Shown here: positions 40,851 to 50,975 of the stretch, piece after piece
How positions within the stretch are numbered: position 1 is the first letter of the stretch
How the letters are laid out: the number at the start of each line of letters is the position of its first letter
NCBI GenBank assembly: GCA_029778615.1
Contig: JAKOPZ010000085.1
Coordinates: 1 to 64,000 of the forward strand
Length of the DNA: 64,000 bases
Origin: Chloroflexota bacterium
GTDB taxonomy: Bacteria > Chloroflexota > Anaerolineae > UBA4142 > SHND01
Direction of reading: 5' to 3'
The notes under the pieces: generated by a model
What the model was told of the DNA's origin: nothing
Database searches by the model: none
What the model saw: only the letters and a program-made list of their open reading frames with translations
Program-made: the position numbers and the translations under genes

Positions 40851-40869
40851 TATGACGCAGTGCGTCATA
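40851..40869. promoter_or_regulatory. Operator O1, perfect 19-bp palindrome
   Basis: Arms TATGACGCA / TGCGTCATA around a single G, 3 bp upstream of the -35 of the phasin promoter. Same sequence as operators at 40912, 44078, 44096, 44846 and 44876. Confidence 0.85.
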
Positions 40870-40872
40870 AAC

Positions 40873-40901
40873 TTTTCAGCGCGCGTGTTCCCGTGTATAA
40901 T
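40873..40901 (+). promoter_or_regulatory. Phasin promoter
   Basis: -35 TTTTCA (40873-40878), 17 bp, -10 TATAAT (40896-40901), lying between operators O1 and O2. Confidence 0.7.
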
Positions 40902-40911
40902 ACTCAACACA

Positions 40912-40926
40912 TGACGCACTGCGTCA
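40912..40926. promoter_or_regulatory. Operator O2 (TGACGCA-C-TGCGTCA)
   Basis: Perfect 7-bp arms, just after the predicted transcription start of the phasin gene. With O1 it brackets the promoter (centres 59 bp apart), suited to repression. Confidence 0.85.
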
Positions 40927-40964
40927 AATTTGAACTGCCAAAAGAGTCTAACAGGAGGGCTGCC

Positions 40965-41342
40965 ATGCCAAAGAACGCGGCGCACAAAGCAGCGGACGAT
41001 GCCAAAAAAGAAGGCAACGTTGTGCTGAATACCTTTCGCAAAATGATGCTGGCGAGCGTGGGCGTCGTCGGCGTCGCGCAAGACGAAATCAACCATGTGC
41101 TGAACCGCATGGTTGAACGCGGAGAGATTACCGAAAAAGACGCGCGCAAATTGGTCAGCGAGATGCAAAGAGAAATCAACAAGCGGCGCAAGAGCGGTCA
41201 AACCAAAGCAGAAAAAGAAATGGAAAGTTTGATGGAGAAAATGAACGTGCCCTCCAAAGGGGATATTGAAGATTTGACCAAACAAGTCGCGCACTTGTCC
41301 AAACGCATCGAAGAATTGAAAGCGGAAATGCAAAGCAAGTAG
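40965..41342 (+). CDS. Phasin-family granule-associated protein 1
   Basis: 125 residues. AGGAGG lies 6 nt before the ATG. A short amphipathic region FRKMMLASVGVVGVAQDEI is followed by a highly charged helical and coiled-coil tail (KLVSEMQREINKRRKSG, then LTKQVAHLSKRIEELKAEM). This is the shape of phasin / poly(3-hydroxyalkanoate) granule-associated proteins, which coat lipid or polyester granules. Its promoter is bracketed by two palindromic operators also found at phaR and at another phasin gene. A hairpin with a T-run ends the transcript. Confidence 0.8.
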   Translation: MPKNAAHKAADDAKKEGNVVLNTFRKMMLASVGVVGVAQDEINHVLNRMVERGEITEKDARKLVSEMQREINKRRKSGQTKAEKEMESLMEKMNVPSKGDIEDLTKQVAHLSKRIEELKAEMQSK

Positions 41343-41345
41343 TAT

Positions 41346-41397
41346 GTAGCAGGCAGCAAGACCCAATGCATGACTTGCTGCCTGCTACTTTTTTTTC
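41346..41397 (+). terminator. Terminator made from a GTAGCAGG-family hairpin
   Basis: 15-nt arms GTAGCAGGCAGCAAG / CTTGCTGCCTGCTAC with a 14-nt loop, followed by eight T. It is related in sequence to the repeat at 17338-17405. Confidence 0.85.
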
Positions 41398-41399
41398 CT

Positions 41400-42554
41400 A
41401 TGTGGCAATTTAAAAGTCCATTTGTCGTTTTTGGCGAGGATGCGCTCGAGTATCTCAACAATATTCAGGCGCGCCAGTTTTTCATCGTCACCGACGCAAA
41501 CATGGTGCGGCTCGGCTTGGTTGACATGGTCGCGCATCATTTGAACGCCCCCTACACCGTGTTTGACCGGGTAGAACCGGAACCTTCACTGCAAACGGTG
41601 CGCCTCGCCGCGCAAACGATGGACCAATCGCAGCCCGATTGGATTATCGGTTTGGGCGGCGGCTCGTGTATGGATGCGGCAAAAGCCGCGTGGCTGCTGC
41701 ACGAAAAACCCGACGCCGATATTACGACAATTAACCCGATGGAAGATTATGGGCTGCGCGCCAAAGCCAAGTTGATAGCCATCCCCACAACTTCCGGCAC
41801 CGGTTCGGAAACAACCATGGCGACCGTGCTGACCGACAAGGAGGAACAGCGCAAACTCGCGCTCGGTTCGTACGAACTCGTCCCCGATATAGCCATCGTG
41901 GACCCGGCGCTCGTGATGAAATTGCCCCAAGCCATTACCGTTGATACGGGCATGGATGTGTTGACGCACGCGGTGGAAGGATATACCAGCCGGATGCACA
42001 ATGATTTTTCCGACGGGATGTGTTTGAAAGCAACCGAATTGGTGATGAAATATCTGCCGCGCGCCTACGCCGACGGGAGCGATCTCGAAGCGCGCACCCA
42101 CATGCACAATGCGGCGACCATTGCCGGTTTGGGCTTTGGCAATTCGCAAGCCGCGCTCGCGCACGCGATGGGTCACGCGCTCGGCGCATTATTCAAACTC
42201 GCGCACGGACGCGCGGTGAGTTTGTTTTTGCCGTACACGATTGAATACACGGCGAACGGCGGCGACTCGCGCTATATTGAACTCGCGCACATGATGAAAC
42301 TGCACACCCATTCGGAAATGGAATCGGCGCGCGAGATTGCCGAACATATTCGCGAATTGCAGCGGAGCATGAACATGCCCACTTCGCTTCAGGACGCGGG
42401 CATTCCGCACGACGAATTTGTCGAGGCCCTGCCGCGTCTTGTGGCGAATGCAAATATGGATACACAAGTCGTGATGAATATGCGCGTGCCGGAAAGTGCC
42501 GAGTTGGAAAAACTATTCGAGTATGCCTACGCGGGTCGCCGCGTTGATTTTTGA
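41400..42554 (+). CDS. Iron-containing alcohol dehydrogenase
   Basis: 384 residues from the ATG at 41400. NAD(P) motif GLGGGSCMDAAKA; AIPTTSGTGSE; metal-binding His residues in DVLTHAVEGY, HAMGHALGALFKLAHGRA. These are standard for group III Fe-dependent alcohol dehydrogenases, which reduce aldehydes or oxidise alcohols with NAD(P)H. In this neighbourhood, with an acyl-ACP reductase-like protein 3 kb downstream, a role in fatty aldehyde to alcohol reduction is attractive but unproved. It starts right after the phasin terminator with no clear ribosome site. Confidence 0.92.
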   Translation: MWQFKSPFVVFGEDALEYLNNIQARQFFIVTDANMVRLGLVDMVAHHLNAPYTVFDRVEPEPSLQTVRLAAQTMDQSQPDWIIGLGGGSCMDAAKAAWLLHEKPDADITTINPMEDYGLRAKAKLIAIPTTSGTGSETTMATVLTDKEEQRKLALGSYELVPDIAIVDPALVMKLPQAITVDTGMDVLTHAVEGYTSRMHNDFSDGMCLKATELVMKYLPRAYADGSDLEARTHMHNAATIAGLGFGNSQAALAHAMGHALGALFKLAHGRAVSLFLPYTIEYTANGGDSRYIELAHMMKLHTHSEMESAREIAEHIRELQRSMNMPTSLQDAGIPHDEFVEALPRLVANANMDTQVVMNMRVPESAELEKLFEYAYAGRRVDF

Positions 42555-42581: not shown

Positions 42582-43412
42582 ATGTTCACACGCAACAAAA
42601 CTGTCGGACTCGCGTTGAGTGGTGGAGCCGCACGCGGCGCGGCGCATCTCGGCGTACTGCGCGTGCTCGAGCGCGCCAAGATTCCGATTGATGTGGTTGC
42701 GGGCGTGAGCGCGGGTTCCATCGTCGGCGCGTTGTATTGCGCGGGCGTGTCATTGGACGACATGCTGCACGCGATGGAGGATTTCCGTTGGAGCCAAATC
42801 ACTTCGCTGACGCTTCCGCGTCACGGCCTTGTCTCGTTCGCCAAGTTGGAAAAATATCTCGTCAAATGGATTGGCGACGTGTGGTTCAGCGAATTGCAAG
42901 TTCCATTCGCCGTTGGCACGACGGACTTGCTGACGGGACGCGCCGTGACGTTTGTCACCGGACGCGTGGCGCCGCTTGTGCGCGCGAGTTGTTCCATTCC
43001 CGGTCTGGTTGTGCCGCTCGAGTATGGCGATTACTGGTTGTGCGACGGTGCCATTTCGTGTAATTTGCCATCGCAAGCCGCACGCGATTTGGGCGCGGAC
43101 ATTGTGATTGGCGTGGACTTGATGCAACCGTACGTGCGAAAAAATTTCGGGGCGTTGGGCATTGCCAGCACCGCGCTCGAGATTCTGGTGCGGCATTCCG
43201 GCGGCGGTGTGCAAGGCGCGGACATTGTGATTGCTCCCGCGTTGGATAACAAGACCTATTCGCGTTTCAGTCGTTACCGCGAAATGATTGAATTGGGAGA
43301 ACGCGCGGCAGAGCAAATCCTGCCAGCCCTGCGCGCGCAAGGAGTGGGGCATTCCGTTGCAGAGTTCGCACACGAAACAAAAATCCCCGCTCTCGCTCCG
43401 GACGGGGATTAG
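42582..43412 (+). CDS. Patatin-like phospholipase (RssA/NTE type)
   Basis: 276 residues. The oxyanion motif is GLALSGGAARGAAHLGVL, the nucleophile Ser is in GVSAGSIVGAL (GxSxG), and the catalytic Asp is in LCDGAISCNLP (DGA). The dyad is complete. Patatins hydrolyse acyl esters, and members occur on PHA granules and lipid bodies. It follows the alcohol dehydrogenase by 27 bp. The last codons form a stem (AATCCCCG / CGGGGATT) that may end the transcript. Confidence 0.9.
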   Translation: MFTRNKTVGLALSGGAARGAAHLGVLRVLERAKIPIDVVAGVSAGSIVGALYCAGVSLDDMLHAMEDFRWSQITSLTLPRHGLVSFAKLEKYLVKWIGDVWFSELQVPFAVGTTDLLTGRAVTFVTGRVAPLVRASCSIPGLVVPLEYGDYWLCDGAISCNLPSQAARDLGADIVIGVDLMQPYVRKNFGALGIASTALEILVRHSGGGVQGADIVIAPALDNKTYSRFSRYREMIELGERAAEQILPALRAQGVGHSVAEFAHETKIPALAPDGD

Positions 43413-43480: not shown

Positions 43481-44044
43481 TCAATTCCGCGCGCGTTTCT
43501 TTTTTGCAGGTTTGGGTTTGAGCGTTTCCAATTCGCGTTTCAGGTCGGCAACTTGATGCGCCAACTCTTGGACTTGATTCCGCGTCGGGGTGCCGCGCTT
43601 TGCCAGCGCGCGCTCCAATTTGACTTCGTCGGGCGAGCGCGGTTCGGGATGCACGGACAATAATTTTTCCAACAGCTGCGTGCCCAGTTTTTTGCTGAGC
43701 GCGCCATTTTGAATCAGCTTCATCATGCGCTGCTCAATTTCGGAATCTATCCGCGCGGCGGCATCCAGCGGCAAAACCGTGTTGCGAATTTGTTTGAGCG
43801 TTTGATTGCTCGCTTGAATAATATTGGTCAGGACGGTGTTGGGCAGCCCACTGCTCGCCTGCCGTTCTTGTTCAAAAATAATCTGCGCTTGAATTTGCGC
43901 GGTAATATCTTCGCCCGTGCCGTGGTCCAGGACCATAATGTCATCGCCCTGCCGAATCATTTCGGCGAGGTCGAAAAGCGTCACATAACGTTTCGCGTGG
44001 GTATCGTACAATTTGCGGTTGTTGTAGCGTTTGATAATCGGCAT
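43481..44044 (-). CDS. phaR: PhaR-type polyhydroxyalkanoate synthesis regulator
   Basis: 187 residues from the ATG at 44044, which has GAGG 5 nt upstream; a GTG at 44050 overlaps that ribosome site. The N-terminal DNA-binding domain is diagnostic: MPIIKRYNNRKLYDTHAKRYVTLFDLAEMIRQGDDIMVLD. An accumulation-regulatory segment (EDITAQIQAQIIFEQE) and a long helical tail with a coiled-coil (QELAHQVADLKRELETL) follow. PhaR represses phasin genes and is released when it binds nascent granules. Two copies of the local operator overlap its own predicted promoter, consistent with autoregulation. No PHA synthase is in the window. Confidence 0.9.
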   Translation of the reverse strand: MPIIKRYNNRKLYDTHAKRYVTLFDLAEMIRQGDDIMVLDHGTGEDITAQIQAQIIFEQERQASSGLPNTVLTNIIQASNQTLKQIRNTVLPLDAAARIDSEIEQRMMKLIQNGALSKKLGTQLLEKLLSVHPEPRSPDEVKLERALAKRGTPTRNQVQELAHQVADLKRELETLKPKPAKKKRARN

Positions 44045-44077
44045 AGCCACCTCAGATTGGGTCGCGGCGCCAAGATA

Positions 44078-44227: not shown

Positions 44228-44524
44228 TCAAGCAATCGCGTGTTCAACACGTTTCACGGCTTTTTTGACGGTCTTGTTCGCGCGCGCCATAGCGGTTTTT
44301 TGTTCTTTTTGCACTTCGTGCGCGAATTGACGAACGTCTTTGTTGCTCTGGCGCGCCATTTTGCGCGCGTCCTGTTGCATGCGCTCGCCGCGCGTGACAA
44401 AGGTCTCGAACAACTTGCCCAATTCATCGCCCGCCACGCCGAATGCGCCGACATACGCCAACGCCATCTTGCGGGTGAATTCCATAAAGCGGTTGGGCTC
44501 TTTCATTTCTACTTTTTTTACTGC
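44228..44524 (-). CDS. Phasin-family granule-associated protein 2
   Basis: 98 residues from the ATG at 44524, with AGGAGGC upstream. After a short lead, FTRKMALAYVGAFGVAGDELGKLFETFVTRGERM matches the hydrophobic-then-charged phasin signature and aligns with phasin 1 (FRKMMLASVGVVGVAQDEI). The rest is a Lys/Arg/Gln-rich helix (DVRQFAHEVQKEQKTAMARANKTVKKAVKRV). It lies downstream of the small phasin-like gene and upstream of phaR, all on the minus strand. Confidence 0.8.
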   Translation of the reverse strand, partial: AVKKVEMKEPNRFMEFTRKMALAYVGAFGVAGDELGKLFETFVTRGERMQQDARKMARQSNKDVRQFAHEVQKEQKTAMARANKTVKKAVKRVEHAIA

Positions 44525-44619
44525 CATTGGATTTGCCTCCTGTGCAAATTTCAATTCTGTTACCATCGGCGCGACAACGTGTATGACACAAGGTCCCGCT
44601 GTCCACCGAAATCCTCTTG

Positions 44620-44817
44620 CTAACGACGGACCCAGGCACGCGCGCTTTTTTCGACGCGCGCACCACGGCGGACAATTATCTTCAAGAGCATGTTAGGGCG
44701 AATGATGCGGTTGACATGGTCGCTTGCGATGCCAAGCCCACCGAGAGCTGCCAGCACGAGCATCCGTCCGAGATTTCTTGGTTCCGGCGCCTCCGGGACT
44801 TGGGTTTTGACTGCCAT
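44620..44817 (-). CDS. Small phasin-like protein 3
   Basis: 65 residues from the ATG at 44817 with GGAGGG upstream. It contains RMLVLAALGGLGIASDHVNRIIRPNM, alignable with the ALAYVGAFGVAGDELG core of phasin 2, but lacks the long charged tail. The C-terminus is basic (IIVRRGARVEKSARAWVRR). Its promoter is consensus-like (TTGACA-17-TATAAT) with operators in the spacer and at the start, so it should be tightly repressed. It may be a minimal granule-surface peptide. Confidence 0.65.
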   Translation of the reverse strand: MAVKTQVPEAPEPRNLGRMLVLAALGGLGIASDHVNRIIRPNMLLKIIVRRGARVEKSARAWVRR

Positions 44818-44845
44818 GTGTGATGCCCTCCGCGAAAAATTTTTA

Positions 44846-44860
44846 TGACGCAGTGCGTCA
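44846..44860. promoter_or_regulatory. Operator O5 (TGACGCA-G-TGCGTCA)
   Basis: Perfect palindrome that extends 3 further bp each side (TTA/TAA). It sits just downstream of the minus-strand transcript start of the small phasin-like gene. Confidence 0.85.
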
Positions 44861-44871
44861 TAATCACAAAC

Positions 44872-44900
44872 ATTATAACGCACTGCGTCATAAATGTCAA
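44872..44900 (-). promoter_or_regulatory. Consensus promoter with embedded operator O6
   Basis: Minus strand -35 TTGACA (44900-44895), 17 bp, -10 TATAAT (44877-44872). Operator O6 (TAACGCA-C-TGCGTCA, 44876-44890) lies in the spacer, one mismatch from consensus. Confidence 0.85.
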
Positions 44901-44962
44901 TAGCCCGCGCGGGGCGTGCCTGTGCTACAATAGGGGCAGTTGCACAGAAAGGATTTTCACCC

Positions 44963-45394
44963 ATGCCCGTCTTTCAAAACAGCCAGCAGTTTTACGATAC
45001 GGTCGGTGAGTTGATGGACCGCGCGAAAACTGACCCCGTCGTCGGTCCCAAAATCGCCAAAGCCGGAGTCATTCTGCAATTCAAATACACCGACCCCGAC
45101 GCGGTGACCACAGTGAACGCGAAAAGCAAACCCACACAGCCCGGCGCGTTTGTGGACGTGATTCACGGTCCGACCACCCTCAAGCCCGATATTGAAATGA
45201 CGATGCAAGCCGACGTCGCCCATCAATTCTGGCAAGGCAAGGTAAATCTCGTCGAAGCGCTCGCGCGCAAAAGAATCCTGCTCAAAGGCAATCAACTCAA
45301 AGTGCTCGGACTTTTGCCCGCCGTCGCGCCCCTCTATAAAAAGTACCCGGAACTCTTGCGCGAAAAGGGACTCGAAAAGTTGCTTGCCAAATAG
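44963..45394 (+). CDS. SCP2 sterol/lipid-carrier domain protein 1
   Basis: 143 residues from the ATG at 44963 with AAAGGA upstream. The SCP2-like fold is recognisable: GVILQFKYTDPDAVTTVNAK, a beta region PDIEMTMQADVAHQFWQGKVNLVEALARKRILLKGN, and a C-terminal helix LLPAVAPLYKKYPELLREKGL. SCP2 domains bind acyl chains, acyl-CoA or sterols in a hydrophobic tunnel. It is divergent from the operator-controlled phasin-like gene and may share its regulatory region. A second SCP2 gene is at 50571. Confidence 0.85.
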   Translation: MPVFQNSQQFYDTVGELMDRAKTDPVVGPKIAKAGVILQFKYTDPDAVTTVNAKSKPTQPGAFVDVIHGPTTLKPDIEMTMQADVAHQFWQGKVNLVEALARKRILLKGNQLKVLGLLPAVAPLYKKYPELLREKGLEKLLAK

Positions 45395-45457: not shown

Positions 45458-45502
45458 AAGGACGAATGACCAGCTACAACAGGGTCATTCGTCCTTTGTT
45501 TT
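45458..45502 (+). terminator. Rho-independent terminator after SCP2 gene 1
   Basis: Perfect 14-nt arms AAGGACGAATGACC / GGTCATTCGTCCTT with an 11-nt loop, then TGTTTTTG. Confidence 0.9.
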
Positions 45503-45665
45503 TGTTCGCGGGCGGAGAGATGATGAGGATAACGCATTTCAAAAGCAGTCGTCAGAATCAGGGCAGGCACGCTGTACCTGACCTCGCGTTCGTGCGTACT
45601 GCGACAATTCCTTTTTGAAATGGGTTGAGCAAAAGCCATTCCGAAAAAATCAACAAGGTGCATTC

Positions 45666-47873
45666 ATGAAACACATTCTGGTAATTGACCTGCAACGCGG
45701 TGAACCAACCTCTCCCGGGCGCGATGGGACGCGCACCCTTTCCTTTGCGGGAAATGAGATTGAAATCAAACACGTCGGCTGCGATGGGGATGTCGAACGC
45801 GCGCGCGAACTCATCGCGCAATACGATGGACAAGTGGATGCGATGGCGTTGGAGGGAATGCCCGCACAATTGAAATTGGGGAACATCACGCACGCGCACG
45901 AACTGGGAACCCAACTGCGCGCCATCGCTACGCAAACACCCGTCGTGGATGGCAGCGGCGTGCGCGATGGTTTGGAACGCTGGGCAGTGATGCTCGCGGA
46001 CCGCGCGCAGCCCGGCATCTTTGCCGAAAAATTTATTTTGATGGTGCCGGGCGTGAATCATTCGGGGCTCGCGGATGAAATCGCCAAGCACAGCCCCGCG
46101 ATGCGGTACGCCGACCCGTTCGTTTTTTTTAATCTCCCCGATTTTCCGGGCGTGGGCAGCAAGCAAACTTTGGAACAAGTTGCCGCGCCCACGCTCGAAC
46201 AGCTCGCGCGTTTGCCATTCAAGCGCGTGCATCCGCTTGCGGGCACACCACATGCCCATCGCGCGGAATCGCCGTTTGAGCACGCCGACGTTTTGGTCGG
46301 CGACATTGGCGCGATTCGACGTTATGCCCCGCACGAATTGAAACGCAAAACGATTGTGGTCGAATCCGCGACGGAAGCGGACATTGCGGATTTAAAAGCG
46401 CGCGGCGCATCCATTGTGGTGACGTTGATGCCCGGCTTGGACGAACGCGGCGCGTTGGGCGATTTGCCCGCGTCGGTGCTCGAAGCGATTTTTGTCGCGT
46501 GCCGTACCAACACGGCATTGTCGTTGAACGAAGACACCTATCTCGACATGATGGCGAATCTGGATTGGACGCCGCACATCCGCTATTTGCGCGCGGACGA
46601 AGCCGGCGTGAATAAATTCGCGTTCGTGATTCATCCACTCAACGTGGCTTTCATTCACCAAAACAAATTGTTGAAATGGACAAAATATCTGCCGGATGAT
46701 TTGGTCGAAGCAACCGCCGCGTATTTTCCGCCCCTCTATCTTTCCAAAATTACCGGCGCGCAATCGCCGACCACGGGGCAGCGTGTGGAGGGATATTTGT
46801 TTTCGCTCGGCGCGACGCCGCGTCAAATGATGCAGCACAATGAAAAATTTACCTACACGCGCTTGAATCAAGCCGCGCGCATGGCGGAACGCATGGGTGC
46901 GCGCATCATGGGGCTCGGCGCGTTCACAAGCGTCGTCGGCGACGCGGGCATCACCGTCGCGAATGAATCAGACATTGCGATTACGTCCGGTAATTCGCTC
47001 ACCGTCGCGGCAACGCTCGAAGCCGCCAAGCAAGCGGTGATTCAAATGGGCGCGACCGATTTGACACGCGGCAAAGTGATGATTGTCGGCGCGACCGGTT
47101 CGATTGGTTCCGTCTGCGCGCGTTTGCTGGCGCAAGCGATTCACGATGTCGTTCTCGTTTCGATTGAACCCGCGAAATTGATTGAACTCAAACGTACGAT
47201 TCAAAATGAAACGCCCGGCGCGCAAGTGACCATCGCGCTGCGCGCGGACGAACTCATTGGCGAGTGTGATTTGATTGTGACCGCGACGTCCGCGTTCGGA
47301 CAGCGCGTTGTGGACATTACCAAATGCAAACCGGGCGCGGTGATTTGTGATGTGGCGCGCCCGCCCGACATTAACACGGCGGAAGCGGCGCTGCGTCCCG
47401 ATGTGTTGGTCATCGAAAGCGGCGAAGTATTGATTCCCGGCGACATTGATTTTGGATACGATATTGGGCTGCCGCCGAAAACGTCATACGCGTGTCTCGC
47501 GGAAACGTGTTTGCTCGCGATGGAAGGTCGCTTTGAAGATTACACGCTCGGACGCAATATCGAAATGGAGCGCGTCAAAGAGATTTACCGGCTCTTTAAA
47601 AAACATCAATTCAAACTCGCGGGCTTGCGTTCATTCGGCAAATACATCACGGCAGAAGATGTCGCGGTGAAACGCGCGTTGGCAGAAGAATTGCGCGCGG
47701 ATGCGGAGCGATTCGCAAACGTCAAACGTGAAACGTCAAAGCAATTGGCGAAAATTCCCGCGTCGTCGAAAGGCGTGCGCGTTTCCAACAACGGTTGGAA
47801 AAAATGGTTGGCAATCGGCGTTGGCGCGGGTATAATTGGGGCGATTGCAATGCGTCCGCGTACACTCCATTAG
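45666..47873 (+). CDS. Two-domain protein with C-terminal acyl-ACP reductase (AAR-like) domain
   Basis: 735 residues from the ATG at 45666 (AAGGTG upstream). Residues about 1-315 resemble a Chloroflexota family sometimes labelled quinate/shikimate dehydrogenase-like ([34 protein letters not shown]), lacking an obvious nucleotide motif. From about 320 it follows cyanobacterial aldehyde-forming acyl-ACP reductase: [13 protein letters not shown] (416-428), NADP-binding [12 protein letters not shown] (about 472-483), and [14 protein letters not shown], whose first Cys, C610, aligns with the acyl-thioester Cys. The C-terminus has a short membrane-seeking helix ([16 protein letters not shown]). No aldehyde deformylating oxygenase gene is nearby, so alkane synthesis is not implied. 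Confidence 0.8.
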
Positions 47874-48039
47874 GTTCGTTTTGGTAGAAAAGCGAAAACG
47901 CGAATTTACGCGAATCCTTGCCAATCGCCGCGAACTTGAGTTCGCGTGAATTTGTTATGATTCGCGTAGCTTCGCGTTGCGTTCCTTTCGCAAAATCAGC
48001 GCTTTCCATTTTCGCAAGCTAACCGAAAGGTCAACGAAT
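47871..48039. repeat. Intergenic stretch with ACGCGAATTT-type repeats and a palindrome
   Basis: Near-repeats of ACGCGAATTTACGCGAATC, GCGTGAATTTG and GATTCGCGTAG. A perfect 16-bp palindrome (GCGAACTT/AGTTCGC core) lies at 47931-47946. Nothing coding is seen. GAAAGG near 48027 is the ribosome site for the next gene. Confidence 0.55.
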
Positions 48040-49068
48040 ATGACTGACGAACGCGTCATTCTTGTAACCGGCGTCGCGGGCTTTTGGGGGAATCGCGCCG
48101 CCGCGAAATTGATGGAACAAGATAATGTTCACGTCATCGGCATTGATAGCGAGCCGCCGCAAACCAATCTCGAGGGGCTCGATTTTGTTCAAGCCGATGT
48201 CCGCAATCCCCTCCTCATCGAATTACTCCAAGAAGAAAATGTGGAAACGGTCTTGCATTTGCAGTTCCGCGAAACGCTCACGCCGAGCGAAGCCACGTTT
48301 GAACAAAATGTGATGGGCACCGCGAAACTTTTGGGTGCGTGCAGTGAAGCGGGCGTCAAGCATGTTGTGTTGAAAAGCAGCACGATGGTATATGGCGCGC
48401 GCCCCGACAATCCGATGTATCTGCGCGAAGACCATCCGTTGAACGCCCCGAAAAAATACGGCTATCTGCGCGATTGGATCGAAGCCGAAAAATACGCCGA
48501 AAGTTTTCGCGACCAAAATCCGGATGCGACACTCACCATTTTGCGGTTCGGCAATATTGCGGGACCCAAAGCGGATACGCCGCTAACGCGTTTTTTGCGC
48601 GCCGAAGAAGCGGTCACACTATTGGGCTTTGACCCGATGATGCAAGTGATTCACGAGCACGATGTGATTGCGGCATTGGTGCACGCGGTCAACGGCACCT
48701 ATCCGGGGACGTACAATGTCGCGCCGGAAAAAGGAATGCCGCTTTGGAAAATATTGGGGCTCGCGCGCAAAGTGCCCCTGCCCGTTTTGCATCCGCTCGC
48801 TTACTGGAGCGTTTCGCTTGGCGGTCCGCGCCTCGCGCCGCTGCCGCTTGATTATTTGCGCTATCCCTGCATGGGCGACATGCAGAAAATGCGCGACGAA
48901 CTGCAATTCACTCCGCAGTACACGCCGGAAGAAACCGTGCGCGAACTCGCGTCACAACAGCGCTTGCGCAAATTGTTTGGCAAAAAGAGCGCGGACGCGT
49001 TGGACGAAGACCGCTTGCGGGATACCATTCAACGCCGCAAACGCGCGCGGACGCGGGCGGGCAGTTAG
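48040..49068 (+). CDS. Extended SDR (NAD-dependent epimerase-like) with altered catalytic motif
   Basis: 342 residues. The Rossmann motif is TGVAGFWGNRAA with VIGIDSEP as the acidic end of strand 2. QFRETLTPSEATFEQNVMGT and STMVYGARPDNPM are typical of extended SDR epimerases or ketoreductases. The catalytic YxxxK is changed: aligned with YARDK-type relatives the site reads Y142-L-R-D-W146, so the general-base Lys is a Trp. It may bind a nucleotide or lipid substrate without standard redox chemistry, or use another base. It lies between the AAR-like protein and the acyltransferase in the same direction, probably one operon. The C-terminal tail is very basic. Confidence 0.8.
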   Translation: MTDERVILVTGVAGFWGNRAAAKLMEQDNVHVIGIDSEPPQTNLEGLDFVQADVRNPLLIELLQEENVETVLHLQFRETLTPSEATFEQNVMGTAKLLGACSEAGVKHVVLKSSTMVYGARPDNPMYLREDHPLNAPKKYGYLRDWIEAEKYAESFRDQNPDATLTILRFGNIAGPKADTPLTRFLRAEEAVTLLGFDPMMQVIHEHDVIAALVHAVNGTYPGTYNVAPEKGMPLWKILGLARKVPLPVLHPLAYWSVSLGGPRLAPLPLDYLRYPCMGDMQKMRDELQFTPQYTPEETVRELASQQRLRKLFGKKSADALDEDRLRDTIQRRKRARTRAGS

Positions 49069-49089: not shown

Positions 49090-49167
49090 AGTCAACCTTT
49101 GTTGACTGAATACAAATTCGACGGAGGTCGAATTCGCCCTGTGTTGCTCGCGAACTTTGTTCGCAAC
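49090..49167. repeat. Three consecutive small hairpins upstream of the acyltransferase
   Basis: AGTCAAC-CTTT-GTTGACT (49090-49107), AATTCGAC-GGAG-GTCGAATT (49115-49134) and GCGAAC-TTT-GTTCGC (49150-49164) follow one another in about 75 bp. Confidence 0.75.
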
Positions 49168-49206
49168 GAATTTCTATTCGCTTGCAAGTCGCAAGGAATC
49201 AAACCT

Positions 49207-50562
49207 ATGGCAAAGAAAAAACGCACCCCGAGCGCGGAACTTGTCCGCACAGAAATTGTAGAACCCTCCGCGAACGGTGACGGTATGAACGCGACGACGG
49301 AACCTGCCGCGCGCAAAACACGCACCAAACGGAACGCGCCGAACCAAGCCGCCGTAAAAAAATCCGCGCGCGCGAAATCACCGCGCCGCGCGCGGCACAT
49401 CATGCAAGAACCCCTCGCAGAACCGGAAGAAATCGAATTACCGGATGTTCAAGCCGAACTCGAAGCCAGTCCCTCGCTGCAACGGCGCAGTCGAAAATTG
49501 GCTAAAGAATTGCTCGCCGAGTTGGAACAGCTTGCCAAGCGCATTATGCGTTTGTCGCCCGCGTATCACGCGGAATCCGCAATCCCGGATGAAATGCAAG
49601 AGACCATCGGCGAAAACATCGAAAGCGTTCTCAACGGCGCGGGTGCGGCAAGCATTCTGGCGCGCGTACAAAAATTGCTCCCCGGTGAAATGCTCGACAC
49701 GGACACGCTCAAAGGCATGTGGACCATGTTGAAATTCACCGCGCAATACCAAGCTGATGTTGCCAAGCGGCGGCTCACCGGCGATTACGAAACCGACGAA
49801 TGGGGTATGGACCAAGAATTTGTGGATGCGGTGCTGCCCTTTTTCAATTTCCTGTACAACCGCTACTGGCGCGTCAGCATGAGCGGTTTGGAAAATATTC
49901 CGGATGATGGACGTACCCTGCTCGTCTCGAATCATTCCGGACAATTGCCTTTTGACGGCGCGATGATTGGCACGGGCATTTTGCAGAATCATTCGAGCGC
50001 GCGCTTTATGCGCGCCTTGTACGCGAGTTGGTTTCCCACACTCCCATTCGTCTCTGACATTTTGACCAAAGCGGGTCAAGTGATGGCAAACGATGAGAAC
50101 GCGTTGCGCTTGTTGGAGCAAGACCATCTCGTCGCCGTATTTCCCGAAGGATACAAAGGCGTCGGGAAATTGTACAAAGACCGCTATCATCTCGCGCGTT
50201 TCGGACGCGGCGGCTTTGTGCGCGTCGCATTGAAAGCAAAAGCGCCGCTGATTCCCGTCGCGGTCGTCGGCGCGGAGGAGACGTACATTTCGCTTCACAA
50301 ATCGCAAACGCTCGCAAAGCTGGTCGGCTTTCCGTACTTTCCCATTTCGCCGACCTTCCCCTGGCTCGGTCCGCTCGGCTTGATTCCTCTGCCGACGAAA
50401 TGGTACATTGACATTGGCGAACCGATTCGCACGGACGAATATCCCGAGGGTTCGGAAAACAATCTCATGCTCATTTCGCAATTGACCGATCAGGTGCGCG
50501 ATACGGTACAAAATATGCTCAACGACCGCTTAAGAATGCGGAAAAGTATTTTCACGGGATGA
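49207..50562 (+). CDS. PlsC/MGAT-like acyltransferase
   Basis: 451 residues from the ATG at 49207 (AAGGAA upstream). The first 200 residues are a basic, Ala/Glu-rich helical extension (KSARAKSPRRARHIMQEP; SLQRRSRKLAKELLAELEQLAKRIMRL). The acyltransferase domain begins near 225: VSNHSGQLPFDG (H243 with Asp 7 residues on, the spacing of MGAT/DGAT-type LPLATs), VAVFPEGYKG (about 309-318), LIPVAVVGAEE. Such enzymes esterify glycerolipids or alcohols with acyl-CoA/ACP. The product could be a phosphatidate, diacylglycerol or wax-type ester; this is not decidable here. It is coupled to the following SCP2 gene by only 8 bp. Confidence 0.85.
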   Translation: MAKKKRTPSAELVRTEIVEPSANGDGMNATTEPAARKTRTKRNAPNQAAVKKSARAKSPRRARHIMQEPLAEPEEIELPDVQAELEASPSLQRRSRKLAKELLAELEQLAKRIMRLSPAYHAESAIPDEMQETIGENIESVLNGAGAASILARVQKLLPGEMLDTDTLKGMWTMLKFTAQYQADVAKRRLTGDYETDEWGMDQEFVDAVLPFFNFLYNRYWRVSMSGLENIPDDGRTLLVSNHSGQLPFDGAMIGTGILQNHSSARFMRALYASWFPTLPFVSDILTKAGQVMANDENALRLLEQDHLVAVFPEGYKGVGKLYKDRYHLARFGRGGFVRVALKAKAPLIPVAVVGAEETYISLHKSQTLAKLVGFPYFPISPTFPWLGPLGLIPLPTKWYIDIGEPIRTDEYPEGSENNLMLISQLTDQVRDTVQNMLNDRLRMRKSIFTG

Positions 50563-50570
50563 GGTCAACA

Positions 50571-50975
50571 ATGCCCAAATTTTCCGATGCTGAAAAATTG
50601 TATGACGTAATGCGTGATATGTTTGCGCGTGTGGCGGCGCAAGACCCGAAAGCATTTGACGAAATGGTCAAAGCGCGCCTGACCGTGCGCTTTCAGGTGA
50701 ATCAACCCTCCGGCGAAATTACGGTTGACGGGAAAACGCGTCCGCCGAAACTGACGTATGGGGCATACAGCGGGCGCCCCGACATTGATTTGGATTTGAC
50801 AGGCGACAATTTGGATAAACTCCTCAGCCACCAAATTTCCGCGACCAAGTCCGTTACGAACGGCACGATTAAATTCAAAGGCAATATTTTGAAATTAAAA
50901 GCGCTGCTGCCCGTCATCAAGGCAGGCAATGCGGTGTATGCGGATGTGTTAAAAGCGCACCAGCTGGACAAATAA
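50571..50975 (+). CDS. SCP2 sterol/lipid-carrier domain protein 2
   Basis: 134 residues from the ATG at 50571, with GAGG overlapping the acyltransferase stop. The SCP2 pattern is ARLTVRFQVNQPSGEITVDGK, then RPDIDLDLTGDNLDKLLSHQISATKSVTNGTIKFKGNILKL and a C-terminal helix LLPVIKAGNAVYADVL. It is more acidic than SCP2 protein 1. A degenerate operator-like sequence (TGACGTA-A-TGCGTGA, 50603-50617) lies inside the coding region. It probably presents acyl substrates to the acyltransferase next door. Confidence 0.85.
   Translation: MPKFSDAEKLYDVMRDMFARVAAQDPKAFDEMVKARLTVRFQVNQPSGEITVDGKTRPPKLTYGAYSGRPDIDLDLTGDNLDKLLSHQISATKSVTNGTIKFKGNILKLKALLPVIKAGNAVYADVLKAHQLDK

Follow-up and report, generated by a model that had tools for sequence, protein, structure and literature searches.

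A Chloroflexota genome carries an acyl-thioester reductase domain joined to what is probably a degenerate copy of its own fold, a combination that we regard as probably new and that genome content ties to wax-ester storage. The gene lies in a stretch of 64,000 nucleotides, here called the window. We predict, with a probability of roughly 0.6, that this tandem protein of the acyl-ACP reductase (AAR) fold is a membrane- or granule-bound reductase that forms fatty aldehyde for wax-ester storage and that its N-terminal half (N-half) is non-catalytic. The gene and its parts are:

45666..47873, + strand: whole fusion CDS (735 aa), coding for a pseudo-AAR-like N-half, a thioester reductase of AAR/PigE type and a hydrophobic tail
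45666..46592, + strand: N-half (residues 1-309), by prediction a degenerate AAR-fold domain; the GATGSIG loop is missing and S270 stands in place of the Cys
46614..47666, + strand: C-half, residues 317-667; predicted AAR/PigE-type acyl-thioester reductase domain (NF053554 1.2e-58, TIGR04058 8.5e-21; 6jzq Z 34.5)
47088..47108, + strand: dinucleotide loop GATGSIG, residues 475-481 (AAR 162-168; PMC7089970)
47160..47171, + strand: SIEP, residues 499-502; I500/E501 replace AAR R189/N190
47493..47495, + strand: C610, equal to AAR C294 and PigE C296, conserved in 40/40 C-halves (PMC7089970, PMC8341465)
47793..47852, + strand: C-terminal hydrophobic helix, residues 710-729 (type A tail)

The coding sequence opens with an ATG at 45666, preceded by AAGG 8-11 bases upstream, and ends with the stop at 47871-47873; the longest open reading frame at the locus begins at a TTG at 45615, and alignments of homologues begin at the MK encoded from 45666. 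Is such a fusion real? Thirty loci code for the fusion protein, or for a part of it cut by a contig end, at about 62-76% identity, and 35 near-full-length matches were found among 301 Chloroflexota genomes surveyed, the window's own (G000) counted; in the same survey each half also exists as a standalone gene. Because the identical architecture repeats across many independent assemblies, we rejected a chimaera or frameshift artefact: the fusion is conserved and is not an assembly accident. The ORF call and the homologue survey thus confirm the reading frame, the position of C610 and the fusion layout reported in an earlier, sequence-only reading of this DNA. That reading also knew of no described enzyme with this layout, and we likewise found no description of it in the open-access literature, subscription journals lying outside our scope.

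The reductase domain and its relatives

The best family match of the C-half in profile searches was the PigE N-terminus (NF053554, E 1.2e-58), followed by AAR (TIGR04058, 8.5e-21), and a sequence search of the PDB returned 4ppm at 7.7e-31 and AAR (6jzq) at 1.2e-14. Both equivalog scores lie below their curated cut-offs (199.1 of 850 bits for NF053554 and 74.6 of 449.7 bits for TIGR04058). In the AlphaFold2 model of the fusion (pLDDT 90.5, pTM 0.87) the C-half has the three-subdomain AAR fold, superposing on 6jzq with Z 34.5 and an rmsd of 2.5 over 327 aligned residues and on the NADH-bound carmabin domain 9e4u with Z 34.7, the next fold following at 14.7. In AAR the acyl group is carried on C294 and the hydride is supplied by NADPH (PMC7089970), and in PigE, for which evidence of thioester reduction has been given, the equivalent Cys, C296, is conserved (PMC8341465). 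The corresponding C610 is invariant, together with E613, in all 40 C-halves, and R630 (AAR R314) is invariant in the fusions. Sequence and predicted structure therefore support an AAR/PigE-type acyl-thioester reductase domain with intact catalytic-site motifs and predicted activity.

The earlier claim of a C-terminal AAR-like reductase domain with an NADP motif and a Cys aligned with the acyl-enzyme Cys is borne out by these results, as is the membrane-seeking helix that it placed at the C-terminus. Its similarity to cyanobacterial AAR also stands, but AAR is not the nearest relative, since the C-half is nearer the PigE thioester-reductase domain. Two outcomes had been named as contrary to the claim: a predicted structure lacking an AAR-like active site, and a profile search placing the domain with glutamyl-tRNA reductase or shikimate dehydrogenase and showing no AAR similarity. 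Neither emerged when the structure was predicted and aligned to AAR and the profiles were searched: the AAR-like site is present, the glutamyl-tRNA reductase profile scores 25.2 bits against a cut-off of 429, and PF01488 matches at 463-574 only, which is the Rossmann part of the C-half.

Which cofactor would the domain use? The AAR site for the NADPH phosphate is partly altered: R314 is kept, R193 is replaced by Lys, and R189 by Ile, followed by Glu, in the paralogue that we call type A, to which the window gene belongs. An acidic residue after the second Rossmann strand usually denotes a preference for NADH. Because type A has such a residue at the R189/N190 site (I500/E501 of SIEP), we predict that it prefers NADH over NADPH.

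The family nearest to the C-half, the PigE/TamH thioester reductase domain of prodigiosin and tambjamine synthesis (NF053554), has the same Cys (PMC8341465) and belongs to the same fold family. PigE/TamH is also a natural fusion, but to an aminotransferase; the window protein instead has an AAR-like N-half and a hydrophobic tail, and Pfam and NCBIfam profiles detected no aminotransferase domain in it. An aminotransferase-reductase fusion of the PigE/TamH kind, 849 aa long, does occur in another Chloroflexota genome (G145, L077:5018-7567). Cyanobacterial AAR (TIGR04058; 6JZQ) and the C-half have the fold, the Cys, the dinucleotide loop and R314 in common at 24% identity; AAR, however, stands alone at 341 aa and has ADO, not found in G000, as its partner. 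The AAR-like "TAD" domain of carmabin (9e4s, 9e4u) shares the fold over about 355 residues and, according to the PDB titles, binds NADH and has its Cys in a disulfide with dephosphocoenzyme A, but, unlike the window fusion, it belongs to a natural-product megaenzyme ("amino acid adenylation domain protein"). Closer in sequence (40-45% identity, same motifs) are standalone AAR-like genes of Anaerolineae, about 365 aa long, with neither N-half nor tail. One of these genes adjoins genes for a hexapeptide-repeat protein and GAF/response-regulator proteins.

The N-terminal half

We found no Pfam, NCBIfam or PDB sequence profile match in residues 1-309. A quinate/shikimate dehydrogenase, which the sequence-only reading had proposed for this region, was rejected on the lack of any Pfam or NCBIfam match there, and the best structural matches are to AAR and the carmabin domain. 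The roughly 315 extra residues are indeed an additional N-terminal domain, but their assignment to a different family did not hold, for no family matches by sequence and the structure points to the AAR fold. When the N-half was modelled alone, from N-half sequences only and with no C-half rows (pLDDT 84), the top eight rows of a structural search of the PDB were all AAR or carmabin-domain entries (Z 11.8-12.6, 243-256 residues, whole span), the first unrelated row having Z 10.2, so that the best value, 12.6, is only 2.4 above unrelated periplasmic-binding folds.

Might the N-half instead share no ancestry with AAR and derive from some other alpha/beta fold, such as a type I periplasmic-binding-like one, that was taken on to sense a ligand? 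In Foldseek the top places go to the sugar-binding protein MSMEG_1712 and aspartate transcarbamoylase, with AAR 48th, and hhalign comparison of the N- and C-half profiles was not significant (P 0.48 and 0.34 for the whole set), both of which favour such an origin. The Foldseek superpositions are poor, however (TM 0.26-0.43, rmsd 8-14 A), with AAR highest on TM at 0.43, and the second structural aligner places all AAR-family entries first; we therefore hold this origin to be improbable. Further comparisons of the two halves point in the same direction as the model. Their only local profile match, itself not significant, sits at the equivalent C-terminal part, where E273-A274, invariant in the N-half family, pairs with E613-T614 and S270 stands opposite C610; hhalign with the standalone N-half set alone gave P 0.011 over 34 columns. 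A combined score of sequence and predicted secondary structure reached 102.3 in native order against a maximum of 99.0 for nulls made by circular shifts and block shuffles, a narrow margin that is supportive only, and with sequence alone or secondary structure alone the native order did not exceed all nulls. The N-half is thus probably a degenerate second copy of the AAR fold, a homology resting mainly on predicted structure.

The copy is also probably non-catalytic. In 17 N-halves the column of the AAR Cys is never Cys, being Asn in nine of nine standalone relatives and otherwise Asp, Ala or Ser, and the dinucleotide loop is missing. Lacking a dehydrogenase match, the Cys and the loop, and with AAR-like entries as its best structural rows, the N-half looks more like a copy of the AAR fold that is probably inactive than like the built-in donor or regulatory module suggested earlier.

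Alternatively, the N-half could be an enzyme in its own right whose distinct reaction is linked in cis to that of the reductase; it might, for instance, provide or consume the aldehyde or acyl group. In favour of this is the standalone N-half family: its members, about 300 aa long, are strongly conserved, with IERIGTDGD, TPxxDG, VTNTTT and RSFGTNM among many invariant residues, and their genomes also carry standalone AAR-like genes elsewhere. These motifs are much relaxed in the fusion, in which 16% of N-half positions are invariant against 45% in the C-half, and no enzyme family matched in Pfam, NCBIfam or PDB sequence searches, so we consider a second enzyme unlikely. On the reading that we prefer, in which the enzyme carries a degenerate version of its own fold, the protein would make a clean case for pseudoenzyme control of catalysis.

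The standalone family (L080, L081, L084, L086 and others) has no NCBIfam match, and several Anaerolineae genomes carry two copies of it. Beyond Chloroflexota, relatives of the N-half were found in two of 40 genomes of one other phylum (that of locus L023), and a search of plasmids found none.

Paralogues and wax-ester synthase genes

The C-half tree unites all fusions in a single clade (support 100/100), a pattern that agrees with one fusion event in Chloroflexota and later divergence into two paralogues, types A and B. All 36 type A proteins carry SIEP behind the second Rossmann strand, and 30 of them possess the hydrophobic tail; of the six without it, two are truncated at contig ends. In type B the SIEP site holds Arg instead (APR) and the tail is absent, except that L048 has both Arg and a tail. 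The fusion clade also takes in two members scored as standalone, L034, which is cut by a contig end, and L067 (G214:C56:83930-85003), a C-half on a long branch with no N-half that possibly reflects secondary loss or decay. Fusion genes beyond Chloroflexota occur in two genomes of the L023 phylum and on a contig labelled Myxococcales (L031), which may reflect transfer or binning error.

Chloroflexus and Roseiflexus of hot-spring mats store lipid as wax esters (PMC4400912). By genome content, type A tracks the wax-ester synthase WS/DGAT. This gene is present in seven of ten type A genomes of the survey and in 21 of the 291 others (Fisher 2.8e-6), and in 29 of 34 type A genomes once relatives from the homologue search are added, related genomes being non-independent samples in both counts; G144 and G452, whose matches have identical coordinates, were counted as one genome. 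None of 18 genomes with type B only, G118 among them, yielded WS/DGAT, nor did the type A genomes G451, G301 and three of genus g152. The three proteins that have lost the hydrophobic tail, those of G222, G260 and G267, belong to genomes that yielded no WS/DGAT. In G094, G198 and G230, all of one genus, WS/DGAT is the next gene downstream of the type A fusion on the same strand, and that of G198 is a full WS/DGAT by TIGR02946; in G000 it lies on a different contig (C268). Alkane synthesis with ADO was rejected as a destination for the aldehyde: ADO (PF11266) was not found in G000 and no match exceeded the cut-off in the 301 genomes, whereas the S. elongatus control was found.

Neighbouring genes, the wax alcohol and local regulatory elements

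The fusion gene lies among genes of lipid and PHA metabolism:

40860..41342, + strand: phasin
41370..42554, + strand: iron alcohol dehydrogenase, best matched by the model for the alcohol dehydrogenase half of AdhE; candidate for the aldehyde-to-alcohol step
42582..43412, + strand: patatin-like lipase
43481..44050, - strand: PHB/PHA accumulation regulator (PhaR-like)
44228..44566, - strand: phasin
44945..45394, + strand: SCP2-like lipid carrier upstream of the fusion, in the same place in several relatives (weak Pfam match, below cut-off)
45458..45496, + strand: perfect 14-bp hairpin and, after it, a T-rich tail, in the gap that separates the fusion from the SCP2 gene (-31.9 kcal/mol over this stretch, z -3.07)
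47977..49068, + strand: extended-SDR/epimerase-like protein, conserved beside the fusion
49099..50562, + strand: PlsC-type acyltransferase, also a weak DAGAT match; conserved neighbour
50559..50975, + strand: SCP2 lipid carrier, conserved neighbour

Parts of this gene order recur in L021, L026, L029, L032, L038 and L103.

From these data we infer the substrate, cofactor and product of the fusion, the role of its N-half and its location. In the C-half, C610 would accept a fatty acyl group carried by ACP or CoA, and a nicotinamide cofactor, probably NADH, would then reduce the thioester to the fatty aldehyde; the N-half, its Cys and cofactor loop lost, would most likely serve structure, carrier-protein docking or control; and the tail would hold the type A enzyme on the membrane or on a lipid/PHA granule. 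An alcohol dehydrogenase and WS/DGAT would then complete the path to stored wax ester.

Does the wax alcohol come from elsewhere? Homologues of HMG-CoA reductase (HMGR) serve wax-ester synthesis as fatty acyl-CoA reductases (PMC11948995), and one of them, FcrA, belongs to a protein family unrelated to the fusion and would take the position in the pathway that we propose for the fusion. The aldehyde made by the fusion might in that case serve another path, such as ether lipids, a specialised lipid made with the neighbouring epimerase and acyltransferase, or aldehyde recycling, and the link to WS/DGAT would be indirect, because both would belong to a lipid-storing lifestyle. FcrA candidates occur in many type A genomes, a second HMGR being present in about 15 of 25 genomes searched (G000 and some 14 other type A genomes), and the conserved neighbours among the window gene's own relatives are the epimerase and the PlsC acyltransferase, not WS/DGAT. 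Against this source, type A and WS/DGAT occur together in G166, G184, G198 and G458, genomes that have a single HMGR and gave no strong FAR-type match, and in G198 and its genus WS/DGAT immediately follows the fusion. An FcrA-like source is thus rather unlikely in our judgement. With a single HMGR and no strong FAR match, these four genomes have the fusion as their best candidate reductase, although Acr1-type SDR reductases may be an alternative in them; PF07993 is too broad for FAR calls either way, strong scores excepted. One HMGR of G000 has a PF25653 N-terminal domain (contig C312:26052-27158; L200:4047-5585), and a second HMGR is also present in that genome; the former is a candidate FcrA-type fatty acyl-CoA reductase that could supply fatty alcohol.

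We found no acyl reductase named for the wax esters of Chloroflexus and Roseiflexus in the open-access literature, and the fusion is a concrete candidate whose Cys, cofactor and partner gene can all be tested. More tentatively, at rather less than even odds, the pseudoenzyme-enzyme tandem may be the missing fatty-aldehyde-forming wax-ester reductase of the filamentous Chloroflexota, Roseiflexus and its relatives, anchored to the membrane or a lipid granule, its dead copy governing access or the docking of carrier proteins. The protein would also be a new component for producing fatty aldehydes and alcohols.

The hairpin upstream of the fusion is terminator-like, and because it lies between the SCP2 gene and the fusion, the latter may have its own promoter. 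The palindrome TGACGCANTGCGTCA occurs at 40853, 40912, 44078, 44096, 44846 and 44876. These sites form three pairs in a 4-kb span, next to the genes for phasin, the PhaR-like regulator and SCP2. Allowing at most one mismatch in its 13-base core, the window has 13 matches on both strands against 1.24 expected, none of 100 shuffles having as many, and the palindrome also occurs in L021, L032 and L117; it is a candidate operator of the PhaR-like regulator. G000 has more than 30 perfect sites, and 147 within two mismatches against 17 for the reversed pattern. Sites elsewhere in this genome are mostly inside ORFs, including one near WS/DGAT inside a P450 ORF, so we rejected a genome-wide operator controlling WS/DGAT and claim no regulon past the local cluster. 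One copy of the palindrome is overlapped by a perfect sigma-70 consensus (TTGACA-17-TATAAT, 44872-44900, - strand), which is placed between the divergent SCP2 gene and an ORF at 44620-44964.
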